This document shows, in pieces, positions 13,377 through 27,955 of a stretch of DNA of 32,371 bases. How positions within the stretch are numbered: position 1 is the first letter of the stretch; every line of letters begins with the position of its first letter. The position numbers and the translations under genes are program-made. Under the pieces are notes generated by a model that saw only the letters and a program-made list of their open reading frames with translations, ran no database searches and was not told the DNA's origin. Source of the stretch: Promethearchaeota archaeon (GTDB taxonomy: Archaea; Asgardarchaeota; Lokiarchaeia; Sigyniarchaeales; SOKP01); NCBI GenBank assembly GCA_014730165.1, contig WJIS01000185.1:1-32371 (forward strand). Direction: 5' to 3'.

Positions 13377-14612
13377 TTAAAGTTTTGAAGCAATAAGATC
13401 AATTAAATCAATTACCTTTATCTTATTTTTTAACTCCTCATCCATAGATTCATACGCATCTTTTAAATTACCAATACAAAATGGACAACTCGTTGTTAAG
13501 ATTTCTGCTCCGCTTTCAGTTGCTTCCTCGATTCTTTCTATCGAAATATTTAACGCTAAATCAGCGAACTGACTTTTAACACCCCCACCAGCACCGCAAC
13601 ACCAAGCATTTTTACGATTTCGTTTCATCTCGATAATTTCTACTCCAGGTAAAGAAGCAATTAATTCTCTTGGAATTTCATATAAATCCATATGTCTCCC
13701 TAAATGACATGGATCGTGATAAGTGATCTTTTGAGGCTTAATTTCTTGCTGGTTAAACGGTATTTGATTGTTATTTAGTAAATCGATTAGTACTTCTGTG
13801 ATATGCTTTACTTCAAAAGGAAGTTCTTCGCCTAAAAGTTCAGGATAATCCTTTTTTAACGTTCTATAACAGCCAGCACACGCTGTAAATACTGTTTGAG
13901 CTCCTTTCGCAACAAATTGTTCAATATTATGTTTAATACTATTTAATACAGCCTTTTCATCACCAATTCTTAATGCAATCGAACCACAGCACCATTCGTC
14001 ATCTGCAATCGCTATTTCTAATCCTGATTGTTCCAGAATTTTCATTAAATTCTTCAAAGTATCTAATTGCCTTAAGGGCATAGTACATCCTCCAAAGAAT
14101 ACTAAATCTGATTTTTCCTTGATATTTGAAAACTCTGATACCCAATCGGACTTTTTAATTTTCGGTTCTCCATAGGGATTTCTCATCTCTGGAGTATTCA
14201 TATATTCAATCAGAATAGCATGTCGTTCTAAGGGAGCAAAACCCGCTTCTACTAGATCCTTTCTCAAAGCATTCCAAACTTCAACATGATCAATCCATTT
14301 TGAAGTATTTAATACGATATTTTCATTTTGAGTTTGATGACATACTTCTGTACAATTACCGCATTCTGAACATTGATACACAAATTCAGCTAATTCTTTA
14401 TTTAAAGGTAATTTTTCTTCCAAAATACTTTTCAGCACATTCATGCGCCCGCGAGAAAACCAAATTTCAAAACCTTCCTCTCCTTTTGCCTCTTTAATTG
14501 GGCACGTTAAAAATCTCCCAACAGCAGGTCGAATGGCATACCCGCAATCTCCGCATCCCATGCAGGACATTACAGACTCCCACTGCTTTTTTAAATTCTC
14601 AAATTTACTCAT
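13377..14612 (-). CDS. (Fe-S)-binding protein, HdrD/GlpC/GlcF-like with CCG domains
   Basis: Two N-terminal ferredoxin-like Cys clusters (CMGCGDCGYAI; CSECGNCTEVCHQ) and two CCG domains (EWCCGSIALR; DPCHLGRHMD...AWCCGAGGGVKSQF). Confidence 0.9.
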   Translation of the reverse strand: MSKFENLKKQWESVMSCMGCGDCGYAIRPAVGRFLTCPIKEAKGEEGFEIWFSRGRMNVLKSILEEKLPLNKELAEFVYQCSECGNCTEVCHQTQNENIVLNTSKWIDHVEVWNALRKDLVEAGFAPLERHAILIEYMNTPEMRNPYGEPKIKKSDWVSEFSNIKEKSDLVFFGGCTMPLRQLDTLKNLMKILEQSGLEIAIADDEWCCGSIALRIGDEKAVLNSIKHNIEQFVAKGAQTVFTACAGCYRTLKKDYPELLGEELPFEVKHITEVLIDLLNNNQIPFNQQEIKPQKITYHDPCHLGRHMDLYEIPRELIASLPGVEIIEMKRNRKNAWCCGAGGGVKSQFADLALNISIERIEEATESGAEILTTSCPFCIGNLKDAYESMDEELKNKIKVIDLIDLIASKL

Positions 14613-14960: not shown

Positions 14961-16478
14961 TTAGCTTCCTCCAAAATGAAATTTCCCTCTACCGAGAATA
15001 GAATTGGGATCTAAGGTTTTCTTAATTGATTTCATAAATTCATAGAAGTTTTCAGGGTAAGCTCCAATTTCAACCATCATTCTTGACATCATATCCCCCA
15101 TCATATACCATTGTACCCCATGCTTAGTTACACGTTCCAAGACCGATTTCCATAGTTTTAAATTGATTTCTTCTATAATTTCATGATATTCCCCATTATA
15201 ATATGGACCAAAGCTAGTAAATCCACATGTAAGTTCCACATTACTTCCATCTATTAACAAAATTGGTCCGCTTCCAGTTATAGGTCGTACACCCGTGATT
15301 TCTGTAATTTTTTGAATATCTTCATTATTCTCTATGTCCCACTGATCTAAGTCTGCTAAAATGGAGGGATAAGTATTAATTGGTGTGAAACATTCCGCGG
15401 TTAACGGTTCAAGCGCGGGATAAAGACCCCATAAATTGTGATAGGTTTGCCAGTGCCCTTGTTCTACATAGTGCCATTTAGCAAAATTTCCTTCTGAGAT
15501 CTCTGTTCCTAATTCCTCTACTTTCTTCTTATTTAAGATTATTTCATCTAATTGTTTAGTTTTTTCCTCTAATTCGTTTTCTGTATTCGCCTGGACTGTA
15601 TAAAAAAATATACCTCTCTTTCGTTTAAGTGAGTCCCACATTGGAAAAAGCCCTTGTTGGCATCCCACATTTACCAGGAGATCCATAATATACATAGCAT
15701 CATAGACTTCGATTCCTCTATATCTGATATCTGAAAATATTTCTGAACTAACTTCCGCTGATTTACGCCCTAATAGAAAAGTTTTATAATTCGCAAACTT
15801 TGGTTTAGGAAAAATTTGTAAAGATATTTTTGTTTTAACTCCCAATATCCCATTATCTCCACAAAATAATCCTGCAAGATCTGGTCCATTACCAAATCTA
15901 TTAAATGGGTTCTTTGAGAATTTATTCGCTTGAGAACCAGTTTCAATAATATCACCTTTCGGAAGAACAACTTCCAAGGATACTAATTGATTTGTACATG
16001 CTCCATATTTTGCGCATCCTCCCCCTCCAACGCTATGATGGCTGATTCCTCCTCCAATTGACGCAGTCATCCCCGAGCCAGGGCCCATACATCCCGTGTA
16101 TAAACCAAAATCCGCCAAATAGTCGTTAACTTTTCCCCAAGAAATCCCCGCTTCAACGGTTATTATAAGGTTATCTCGGTCTAAATTCAAGATATTATTC
16201 ATCCTCTTCATATCTAACAAAATTCCATTATCCCCGATTGGTTTACTTCCTCCAAACTCGCAATCACCTCCTCCCCGAATATAAACGGGTTGATTGTTTT
16301 CATTCGCAATTTTAAGGACTTCTGAGATTTCATTTGCATCTTTCGGTCGCACTATAATATCCGGGATTCCTTGCAGTATTGGATCTACATTTCGAGAATA
16401 AGCGTGTCTTACATTAAGATCTTCTGATATGTATTTGCTAGATAGTACTTTTTCTATTTTCTGATATAGTTCCGACAT
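14961..16478 (-). CDS. FAD-binding oxidoreductase (GlcD/D-lactate dehydrogenase type)
   Basis: IIVRPKDANEISEVLKIANENNQPVYIRGGGDCEFGG PCMH-type FAD domain; GPGSGMTASIGGGISHHSVGGGGCAKYG; GlcD-like C-terminus. Confidence 0.92.
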   Translation of the reverse strand: MSELYQKIEKVLSSKYISEDLNVRHAYSRNVDPILQGIPDIIVRPKDANEISEVLKIANENNQPVYIRGGGDCEFGGSKPIGDNGILLDMKRMNNILNLDRDNLIITVEAGISWGKVNDYLADFGLYTGCMGPGSGMTASIGGGISHHSVGGGGCAKYGACTNQLVSLEVVLPKGDIIETGSQANKFSKNPFNRFGNGPDLAGLFCGDNGILGVKTKISLQIFPKPKFANYKTFLLGRKSAEVSSEIFSDIRYRGIEVYDAMYIMDLLVNVGCQQGLFPMWDSLKRKRGIFFYTVQANTENELEEKTKQLDEIILNKKKVEELGTEISEGNFAKWHYVEQGHWQTYHNLWGLYPALEPLTAECFTPINTYPSILADLDQWDIENNEDIQKITEITGVRPITGSGPILLIDGSNVELTCGFTSFGPYYNGEYHEIIEEINLKLWKSVLERVTKHGVQWYMMGDMMSRMMVEIGAYPENFYEFMKSIKKTLDPNSILGRGKFHFGGS

Positions 16479-24507: not shown

Positions 24508-26016
24508 TTACCAGAAGTTGAACTTTCCACGACTAAGAACATGATTAGGATCAAGAGAGTTTTTGATATTTTTCATAAAATTAAGGTATGATTCATCAAA
24601 AGCACTCATATCGATAAGCAATCTACTTAGAATATCACCACACATATACCAAGAGACGCCGTGTTTTGTAAGTCTTTTTAACATTGATTTCCATAATTTC
24701 ATATTAATTTCTTTAATTTCATCGTATACTTTGTCTTTATGATAACTTTCGAAACTTGTAAACCCCGCTGTTAATTCTACAGTATTATCTTCAATTAAAA
24801 TTATAGGACCTGCACCTGAAATGGGTCTCATTCCAGTAATATCTAATATTTTCTTCATCTCATCTGAATTTTCCATATCCCATAATTCTAAATCCTTCAA
24901 TATTTTTGGATAATTATTAATAGAAGTTTTACATTCGGCATCTAATGGCATAAAACCAGGTACTAAACCCCATAAGTTATGAGCAATTAACCAGTGACCT
25001 TGTTCTTCATAATGCCATTTTCCGATGTTACCATCTGAAATTTCAGGTCCAAGATCTTGGGCTTTATTTTCAAGAAAGATTTTATCTAACTCTTTTACAC
25101 TCTCAGCAAGCTCCACTTCCGAATTTGCTTCAATTGTATAAAACATAATACCGCGCTTTCTCTTTAAATCCTCCCATAATGGAAAAATACCTTGCTGTAC
25201 CCCTACACTCACTAAGAGATCCATAAAATACATTGAATCATATACCTCTATTCCTTTATGTCTAATTTTATTAAAAATCATAGAGGATAATTCTAATGAT
25301 TTTCTTGGAAGTAAATAAGTTTTATACGCTACGTAAGGAGGTTTTGGATAGACTTTAAGTGAGACTTTAGTTTTCACACCCATAATTCCGTTATCTCCCA
25401 TAAAGATACTAGCAAGATCGGGACCATTTCCATAACGATTGAATGGTTTTGTGGAGAATTTATTTGCTTGAGACCCAGTTTCAATTATTTCACCTTGGGG
25501 GAGAACAACTTCCATCGAAACTACATGTTTTGTACAAGGACCGTATTTAGCACCACCTCCTCCGCCAACCGAATGATGGGATATTCCCCCACCAACAGAG
25601 GCAGTAAGACCGCTACCAGGTCCAAGACAGCCAGTATAAAGTCCATAATTTGAGAGATATTCATTCAATTTAGCCCATGAAATCCCAGCCTCCATAGTAA
25701 CGATGAGATTATCCGTATCTAAATTTAGAATGTTTTCCATTCGTTTCATATCTAACACAATTCCACTATCTTCTAATGGTTTACTTCCTCCAAATTCGCA
25801 ACACCCTCCTCCACGAGGTATTACTGGGACATTAGATTCGTTTGCAATTTTAAGGATTTCAGATATCTCATTGGCGTCTTTAGGTCTGATGACATATTCA
25901 GGAATTCCTTGCTGTATGGAATCTACTACTCTTGAATATGCATGTCGAATATTGATATCATTTGAAATGAATTTTGTTGACACAACATCTTTTAATTTAT
26001 TGAAAACATCAACCAT
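24508..26016 (-). CDS. FAD-binding oxidoreductase (GlcD type), paralog of 14961-16478
   Basis: VIRPKDANEISEILKIANESNVPVIPRGGGCCEFGGSKP; GPGSGLTASVGGGISHHSVGGGGGAKYG; colinear with the other copy over its full length. Confidence 0.92.
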   Translation of the reverse strand: MVDVFNKLKDVVSTKFISNDINIRHAYSRVVDSIQQGIPEYVIRPKDANEISEILKIANESNVPVIPRGGGCCEFGGSKPLEDSGIVLDMKRMENILNLDTDNLIVTMEAGISWAKLNEYLSNYGLYTGCLGPGSGLTASVGGGISHHSVGGGGGAKYGPCTKHVVSMEVVLPQGEIIETGSQANKFSTKPFNRYGNGPDLASIFMGDNGIMGVKTKVSLKVYPKPPYVAYKTYLLPRKSLELSSMIFNKIRHKGIEVYDSMYFMDLLVSVGVQQGIFPLWEDLKRKRGIMFYTIEANSEVELAESVKELDKIFLENKAQDLGPEISDGNIGKWHYEEQGHWLIAHNLWGLVPGFMPLDAECKTSINNYPKILKDLELWDMENSDEMKKILDITGMRPISGAGPIILIEDNTVELTAGFTSFESYHKDKVYDEIKEINMKLWKSMLKRLTKHGVSWYMCGDILSRLLIDMSAFDESYLNFMKNIKNSLDPNHVLSRGKFNFW

Positions 26017-26753: not shown

Positions 26754-27635
26754 ATGAAATTCTTTTTTAGAGAGTTAAAAGAGCAAGACATTCCCCAAAT
26801 CAATGAGATCTCTAAAAATATTTGGGAAGGTGAAGATTATGTGCCTTATATTATAGATGATTGGTTAAATGATGAGCAGTCATTTAACTATGGTGTGTTT
26901 TCAGATAAAGAAAAAACTATTCTGATTGCATTTGGTAGAATTAAATTTTTATCCGAATCTCTTTATTGGTTAGAAGGCGGAAGAGTTCGAAAAGACTTTC
27001 AAGGAAAAGGTATTGGAACTCAAATGATGGAATTTTCTTTAAACTATTGTAAGAAGAATGATATTGGAATAATACAATATGATACAGCATCAACCAATGA
27101 AGCTTCGGTAGCACTTGCAGAAAAATATGGTTTTCAAAAAAAACTTAGTATGTATGTTCTTGAAGCATCTCCAAAATTAAATTCATTAATTAATACTGAT
27201 AGTAGTGATTATAAGTTAGTTAAAAAATTGGATCTCGAAACTGCTCTTTCCAAATATAGAGAAATCCTTCCAGAAAAACAATCCGAAATTTGTATTGGTT
27301 GGTCTTATATCCCTCTTAGATTAAAGCATTTGAAAAGCAATGAATGGCGTTGGATATCCATGAATGATGGTATATTACATGAAATCTCAAAAAAGAGAAA
27401 AAATCACATAGAAGGAACAGAAAAAAGTGAAATATGGTTTATTACATATGGAAATGTAAGTTCTGTCGAGAAATTGGTTAAATTTGCTATTAATGATGTT
27501 AAAAATAGAGAAATAATAAATGAATTGGATATTTTCTGTGAAGAGAAACATTTAAGTAGTGTAAAGAAACTTGGATTTAAATTCTGGGAAGATACTCGGG
27601 TAAAAGTCGTTCTTTTTGAGAAGAATGTTAAGTGA
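26754..27635 (+). CDS. GNAT-family N-acetyltransferase
   Basis: FRELKEQDIPQINEISKNIWEGED... EGGRVRKDFQGKGIGTQMMEFSLNYCKKN (motif A) ... NEASVALAEKYGFQKK. Confidence 0.88.
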   Translation: MKFFFRELKEQDIPQINEISKNIWEGEDYVPYIIDDWLNDEQSFNYGVFSDKEKTILIAFGRIKFLSESLYWLEGGRVRKDFQGKGIGTQMMEFSLNYCKKNDIGIIQYDTASTNEASVALAEKYGFQKKLSMYVLEASPKLNSLINTDSSDYKLVKKLDLETALSKYREILPEKQSEICIGWSYIPLRLKHLKSNEWRWISMNDGILHEISKKRKNHIEGTEKSEIWFITYGNVSSVEKLVKFAINDVKNREIINELDIFCEEKHLSSVKKLGFKFWEDTRVKVVLFEKNVK

Positions 27636-27639
27636 ATTA

Positions 27640-27930
27640 CGCACCCCCTAAAGGGGGTGGTTTCAACCATTCGGCTATGTCTTTACGACACTAACTTCAT
27701 TCGGTTGTTCGGGGCATTCACTTGTCCCCCATTCCATTGAACTCATTATCCAATGGACTAATGTGTTGTTCCTCCCTTCGTCATTTATTCCCGACTCGGG
27801 AATAGTTTTCTCCACTTTGGGGAACTCCCACTATATGATAGTAGTGCTGTATCTAAAAATGAGAGGGTGTGCCGAATTAATAACTTACCAATACGATTCC
27901 TCTCCCCCTTGAAGGGGTGAGTTTTCTCGC
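27640..27930 (-). mobile_element. IS200/IS605-type relic (non-autonomous, TnpB tail plus omega-RNA-like right end)
   Basis: On the minus strand: left hairpin ACTCACCCCTTCAAGGGGGAGAG; right end CCCCGAACAACCGAATGAAGTTAGTGTCGTAAAGACATAGCCGAATGGTTGAAACCACCCCCTTTAGGGGGTG. Palindromes at both ends and locally higher GC than the flanks. Confidence 0.72.
27675..27830 (-). pseudogene. TnpB C-terminal-tail-like remnant
   Basis: Minus-strand reading WEFPKVEKTIPESGINDEGRNNTLVHWIMSSMEWGTSECPEQPNEVSVVKT*, positioned as TnpB tails are relative to the right end. Confidence 0.5.
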
Positions 27931-27955
27931 ATTATCAATGATAAAATCAAAAAAA

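Follow-up and report, generated by a model that had tools for sequence, protein, structure and literature searches.

The IS200/IS605 element ISDra2 is excised and inserted by TnpA as a single strand, 3' of TTGAT, and the complex of TnpB and reRNA cuts DNA at TTGAT followed by the target; the authors of that work proposed that TnpB cuts the donor joint, favouring restoration of the element (PMC8612924). In the ISDra2 omegaRNA, UUC at -5 to -3 pairs with GAA at -105 to -103, and a UUUA loop lies at -20 to -17 (PMC10097598). The closest precedents for the element described here are PATEs from Haloquadratum and Halanaerobium. Those of Haloquadratum walsbyi are short, transposase-free IS605 derivatives with near-terminal palindromes (PMC3119063). 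A PATE-like element of 271 nt from Halanaerobium hydrogeniformans is composed of a left-end hairpin, the last 58 nt of tnpB and a complete right end (PMC7290912). The haloarchaeal sotRNAs (RF02656, RF02657) are archaeal RNAs that overlap the 3' end of tnpB; they lie within tnpB genes and are now named omegaRNAs (PMC12558985).

The window analyzed in this work is contig WJIS01000185.1 of a Promethearchaeota archaeon (assembly GCA_014730165.1), 32,371 nucleotides in length. It carries a block which is very probably a non-autonomous, palindrome-ended derivative of a Lokiarchaeal tnpB-only IS200/IS605 (IS1341-type) element, amplified and with the omegaRNA scaffold retained. Like the ISDra2 omegaRNA or reRNA, the scaffold joins the 3' end of tnpB to the right end, would take its guide from the flank and goes with a likely 5-nt T-rich TAM (PMC8612924, PMC10097598); stem 1, a pseudoknot to UUC at -5 to -3, stems 2 and 3 and a terminal hairpin with a UUUA loop are also common to both. 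In contrast to ISDra2, our element has lost the TnpB gene and follows TTTAT instead of TTGAT. With the H. walsbyi PATEs the family shares the absence of target duplication and its occurrence as homogeneous amplified types; some PATEs (HqIRS71) retain a portion of the C-terminal coding region of a transposase, comparable to the TnpB tail found here, and the transposases of the parent families are mostly disrupted, as are the tnpB copies here (PMC3119063). Differences are the archaeal phylum, the sequence, and the TATA-like box and unique middle segment of our element; the omegaRNA scaffold described below is not treated in the part of the PATE account drawn on here (PMC3119063). The anatomy of the H. 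hydrogeniformans element is nearly the same as that of ours (PMC7290912), but it is a single bacterial copy, whereas here there are 13 complete copies with a leader and TATA-like box and an added segment. As with the sotRNAs (PMC12558985), an archaeal RNA would overlap the 3' end of tnpB, yet the window has no Rfam match. Elements of this type are already on record for other prokaryotes, and the 309-bp family is a new, Asgard-archaeal case. What this case adds is a PATE-like family in an Asgard archaeon, at high copy number, with an omegaRNA supported by covariation and a TAM that is likely, while the cognate TnpB is intact in a sister genome.

Extent, Copies and Composition of the Element

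A first, sequence-only reading of this DNA had singled out a compact, GC-richer block at 27640-27930 with two subterminal palindromes, and had taken it for a solo IS605 relic with an omegaRNA-like right end and a TnpB tail. The block itself was correctly placed, but its true ends, 27632 and 27940, lie about 8-10 nt further out on each side. The block, read on the minus strand, is a whole element of 309 bp which has lost its protein gene. The features of the locus are as follows.

26754-27635, plus strand: ORF for a GNAT-family acetyltransferase (Pfam PF00583, 1.4e-13)
27616-27631, minus strand: would-be 16-nt guide in the flank, antisense to the last GNAT codons and adjoining the right end; guide role by analogy with ISDra2 (PMC8612924)
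27632-27940, minus strand: complete non-autonomous IS200/IS605-derived (PATE-like) element, 309 bp, delimited by the ends common to 13 complete copies
27632-27771, minus strand: right end (RE) with omegaRNA-like scaffold, from covariance model R1 and covariation
27642-27659, minus strand: RE subterminal hairpin CACCCCCTTTAGGGGGTG with TTTA loop, from structure analysis
27675-27758, minus strand: tnpB 3' coding remnant, VHWIMSSMEWGTSECPEQPNEVSVVKT and stop, matching the tails of TnpB copies
27711-27730, minus strand: stem 1 hairpin GGGG...CCCC, its loop containing GTGAAT, from structure analysis
27716-27721, minus strand: pseudoknot strand GTGAAT, partner of the terminal ATTCAC at 27632-27637 (98% paired in 43 copies)
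27763-27849, minus strand: segment found only in short elements, with the strong hairpin TATTCCCGAGTCGGGAATA, from copy comparison
27850-27861, minus strand: TATA-like box CATTTTTAGATA, matching in position CTTTTAAATA of tnpB leaders
27889-27940, minus strand: left end (LE), common to tnpB-bearing elements (BLASTN, 82-93% identity to the LE of the ~1370-bp elements)
27902-27921, minus strand: LE subterminal hairpin CTCACCCCTTCAAGGGGGAG, read from the sequence and conserved among copies
27941-27945, minus strand: TTTAT, target or TAM-like pentanucleotide beside the left end, preceding 25 of 28 mapped elements

Both palindromes and the compositional contrast were borne out. The GC content of the block is 45.7% against 31.7% for the window, and the highest GC content among 3208 sliding 291-nt windows within it is 45.4%. 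Searching the organism's own genome at the DNA level (4.65 Mb in 392 contigs, the window being C68; genome-wide statistics were computed on loci fetched from it) returned 45 matches. Thirteen copies are complete, at 307-309 bp and with different flanks each time (C68, C29, C93, C246, C362, C354, C271, C304, C339, C228, C115 and two on C39), the other 12 being 86-97% identical to the window copy. Three more are partial, those on C85 and C32 being cut by contig ends and that on C255 being a fragment. The presence of 13 full-length copies and truncated ones in the same genome means that the block is not a product of chance; the word solo suits the window copy, but that copy belongs to an amplified family.

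In sense orientation the elements start with CATTGATAATGCGAG directly after TTTAT and finish with GTAATTCAC, each with slight variants. There are near-terminal palindromes on both sides, and the termini, CATTGATAATGC and GTAATTCAC, form no terminal inverted repeats. At 309 bp the element is below transposase-coding size, and both of its ends are common to tnpB elements, which upholds its assignment as an IS605 relic. The middle segment of ~87 bp is without a match among tnpB elements or same-genus elements and is as conserved among copies as the ends are. Other short forms measure 170, 361, 547 and 646 bp in the own genome and 243 and 293 bp in G063, a genome of the same genus, and from these varied lengths it follows that deletions of the core arose repeatedly.

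Insertion Sites

The TAM-like motif expected on the 27930 side was found as TTTAT at 27945-27941. Where mapped elements are not preceded by TTTAT, the motif is TTTTT (two elements) or TTTGT (one). Elements are placed 3' of TTTAT, and duplication of the flanks is absent. The copy on C93 lies between two convergent genes, and the orthologous junction in G063, the genome used for empty-site comparison, is without insert. No GNAT orthologue was found in the other four genomes of the genus, and identity within the wider family is ~42%; since these are too distant or absent, an empty site is demonstrable only for the sibling copy on C93. At the window locus the element end supplies the GNAT stop codon, the present ...AAG TGA standing against ...AAA TAA in the joined flanks, and the protein is the same with or without the insert, ending in ...EKNVK.

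This location, antisense at the 3' end of the GNAT gene, where a transcript of the element would enter the gene, would fit an antisense RNA or riboregulator of that gene in place of a transposon. We regard this explanation as highly improbable, given that 12 further sites, whose flanks are unrelated, hold the same sequence in full and that the orthologous site of a sibling is without the element.

Placement antisense at a gene 3' end, with the junction at most 12 nt from the stop codon, was seen for eight of 26 testable elements (window 27632-27635, C29, C93, C339, C115t, C311t, G062 and G063_C52), against a background of 9 of the 285 TTTAT sites in the window. The gene product is the same in seven of these eight and two residues shorter in the other. 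ATAAA, the reverse complement of TTTAT, often overlaps TAA stops, with the element end providing TGA or TAG, and selection against insertion inside genes also adds to this placement.

The Parent tnpB Elements

The parents are tnpB-only IS200/IS605 (IS1341-type) elements of ~1370 bp, and their ends, whose absence the first reading had named as refuting, are abundant in the own genome and in relatives. Parents and short element have the first ~57 bp and the last ~125-130 bp in common; the left end, the leader with the TATA-like box, the C-terminal tail of TnpB and the right end were kept, and most of tnpB is gone. The suggested TnpB tail was recovered at 27758-27675, where VHWIMSSMEWGTSECPEQPNEVSVVKT and stop corresponds to AHRITSSLGWGARECPEQPNDVSVVKT and stop in the tnpB copies. 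The bases around CATTTTTAGATA align with AATTC..CGCACCCTTGCCTTTTAAAT of a G063 leader, and to judge by this alignment the short element probably still carries the promoter of tnpB.

None of the tnpB copies found with these ends in the own genome is complete; they are frameshifted, interrupted or cut by contig ends, and some of those cut have a frame that stays open between the contig edge and the stop codon. An intact TnpB of 398 aa with the same ends is encoded in G062, the same-genus Candidatus Lokiarchaeota archaeon isolate TEKIR_8 (L064:390-1583; contig SDNL01000014.1, 23,613 bp). It scores 165 bits against NF040570 guided_TnpB (cut-off 100) and 81.8 against PF07282 (cut-off 26.3), and carries the RuvC D-E-D residues in GIDRGEKN, ALEDLTHIR and YDRDLNAS together with a CxxC..CxxC zinc ribbon. 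The same protein scores 164.3 bits against a Cas12f2 model, which is far under that model's cut-off and near-equal to the guided_TnpB score; the parent TnpB lineage may be informative for the origins of Cas12f.

G076, from another family of the order, has two near-identical right ends (L161 and L165) whose TnpB tails share 90-95% identity with the G062 tail, and the genomes between G076 and G062 are mostly without such right ends. Their distribution may reflect recent horizontal transfer or contamination. In G063, two stubs of 39 nt (L087, L088) consist of the left end only, the rest of the element having been lost; these stubs led us to reject the notion that the omegaRNA end is invariably left intact by deletion.

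Secondary Structure and Covariation of the Right End

On the minus strand the right end folds into stem 1, the pseudoknot ATTCAC/GTGAAT, stems 2 and 3 and a terminal hairpin. Counting back from the guide, UUC at -5 to -3 pairs with GAA at -88 to -86, and the UUUA loop lies at -21 to -18; as read from its sequence, this layout is that of an omegaRNA. Testing 43 aligned right ends against a model made up of stem A, stem 1, the pseudoknot and stems 2 and 3 gave 93.2% paired cells, with 38 cells altered on both sides, compared with 15.9 +/- 3.3 in shuffles. Shifting the partner by one base lowered pairing to 40-51%. In a wider set including distant homologues, 28 cells were altered on both sides against 9.5 +/- 2.3 in shuffles, and none of 500 shuffles matched the observed value on any covariation measure, with the caveat that this alignment (A2) was fitted to the model, so that pair counts lean towards the structure used for reading the alignments. 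The pseudoknot helix, whose 3' strand was anchored on the last bases of the element, shows compensatory changes in distant homologues, from G-C to U-A and from U-A to C-G.

A covariance model built from these right ends, R1, matches the window copy, itself part of the training set, at 27771-27632 with 157.3 bits (E 6e-39); the match spans the TnpB tail and stops at the element boundary. R1 identified 50 right ends in the own genome, one in G062 and five in G063, two in G076, and, in the rest of the order, four that match weakly. Three of the four weak matches (L162, L164, L166) overlap tnpB genes, or follow them immediately downstream, whose identity to the G062 protein is only 25-41%. The omegaRNA-like right end of the first reading was hence recovered by our own model, while no Rfam family matched the window at the gathering threshold or up to E 10. 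Rfam need not cover the lineage of this element. A tRNA was also considered, and the search found none.

Candidate Guide and Targets

The first reading had placed the guide in the flank near 27639; the sequence there, GTAATTCAC, is the element's own terminus, and the guide would instead begin at 27631 and run downwards as TTAACATTCTTCTCAA.... The empty GNAT allele with joined flanks would read TTTATTTAACATTC. A search of the own genome turned up the guide as a single copy, its own site, together with three matches with three mismatches compared with two for a reversed-pattern control; TTTAT followed by the guide had no match beyond control level except the own empty site. A second genomic target was rejected on these counts. 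With no further match in the genome, nothing points to regulation of another locus, and the proposed trans-acting guide is left with the usual empty-site target.

Origin and Present Activity

We propose that internal deletion or replacement took out nearly all of tnpB. It spared the left end including the TATA-like box, 27 codons at the 3' end of tnpB and the complete right end, which encodes the omegaRNA scaffold. The resulting element multiplied to 13 or more complete copies, presumably through a Y1 TnpA supplied in trans that used the subterminal hairpins for single-strand peel-and-paste 3' of TTTAT. A transcript from the TATA-like box, bound by TnpB made elsewhere, would end in the flank TTAACATTCTTCTCAA..., and the complex would cleave TTTAT plus guide, i.e., the empty GNAT allele left after excision. 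The filled site, with TTCAC instead of TTTAT, would escape, and by analogy with ISDra2 cleavage of the empty allele would favour retention of the element.

Whether this proceeds today bears on two readings which are sub-cases of the amplified tnpB derivative and not alternatives to it. The only recognisable tnpA in the own genome (G000:C369:3273-3642; L061, L062) carries a frameshift, and its left end differs. No TnpA matching the ends of our element was found there, and the tnpA loci of the same-genus genomes have no copy of these ends nearby. Given this frameshifted tnpA with unrelated ends and the lack of a complete tnpB with these ends, the activity of the element may be extinct. We give an even chance to a dead relic, which spread in the past through TnpA in trans, is now decaying, retains its scaffold only because this lies inside the end that TnpA needed, and does no guiding. 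Substitutions per site in 14 aligned short copies amount to 0.073 at paired and 0.046 at unpaired positions; that paired sites change no less often than unpaired sites argues for drift, and ongoing selection on the RNA is not supported. Apart from these unprotected paired sites and the state of tnpA and tnpB, the left-end-only stubs of G063 also favour decay. Pairing per helix in the short copies is nevertheless 88-99%, with 83 of 84 pseudoknot pairs intact, 13 copies preserve both the TATA-like box and the defined form of 309 bp, and the contig ends at which several tnpB copies are cut may hide intact TnpB or TnpA genes.

A working trans-guide parasite, in which short elements would be transcribed, borrow the TnpB of a sibling and secure their retention by using it to cut their own empty sites, is a possibility which we entertain tentatively, as less likely than not. 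The complete scaffold, promoter-like box, TAM, terminal position of the guide and amplification are all consistent with it, as are the own-genome TnpB copies with a frame open between contig edge and stop codon; on the other side, no intact tnpB is proven in the own genome, and the short copies carry no signal of selection on the RNA. Rather unlikely, in our judgement, is an RNA-only selfish element which would have dropped tnpB, kept promoter and omegaRNA, and be reinstated at its own sites by sibling-supplied TnpB, that is, a guide-RNA parasite of TnpB homing in an Asgard archaeon.

The 13 complete short elements, the many decayed tnpB parents and the intact G062 relative constitute a natural set suited to asking whether TnpB in trans serves stand-alone omegaRNAs and so keeps non-autonomous elements in place. 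The set also yields a likely TAM (TTTAT) and a scaffold for a Lokiarchaeal TnpB with an identified intact gene; apart from the TAM, the scaffold and the question of TnpB in trans, this is ordinary transposon biology.

Elsewhere in the window, two paralogous ORFs of ~500 aa each (14961-16478 and 24508-26016) have near-identical starts and motifs and, by eye, look like FAD-linked oxidases. An ORF at 13377-14612 with Cys-rich motifs adjoins the first of them.
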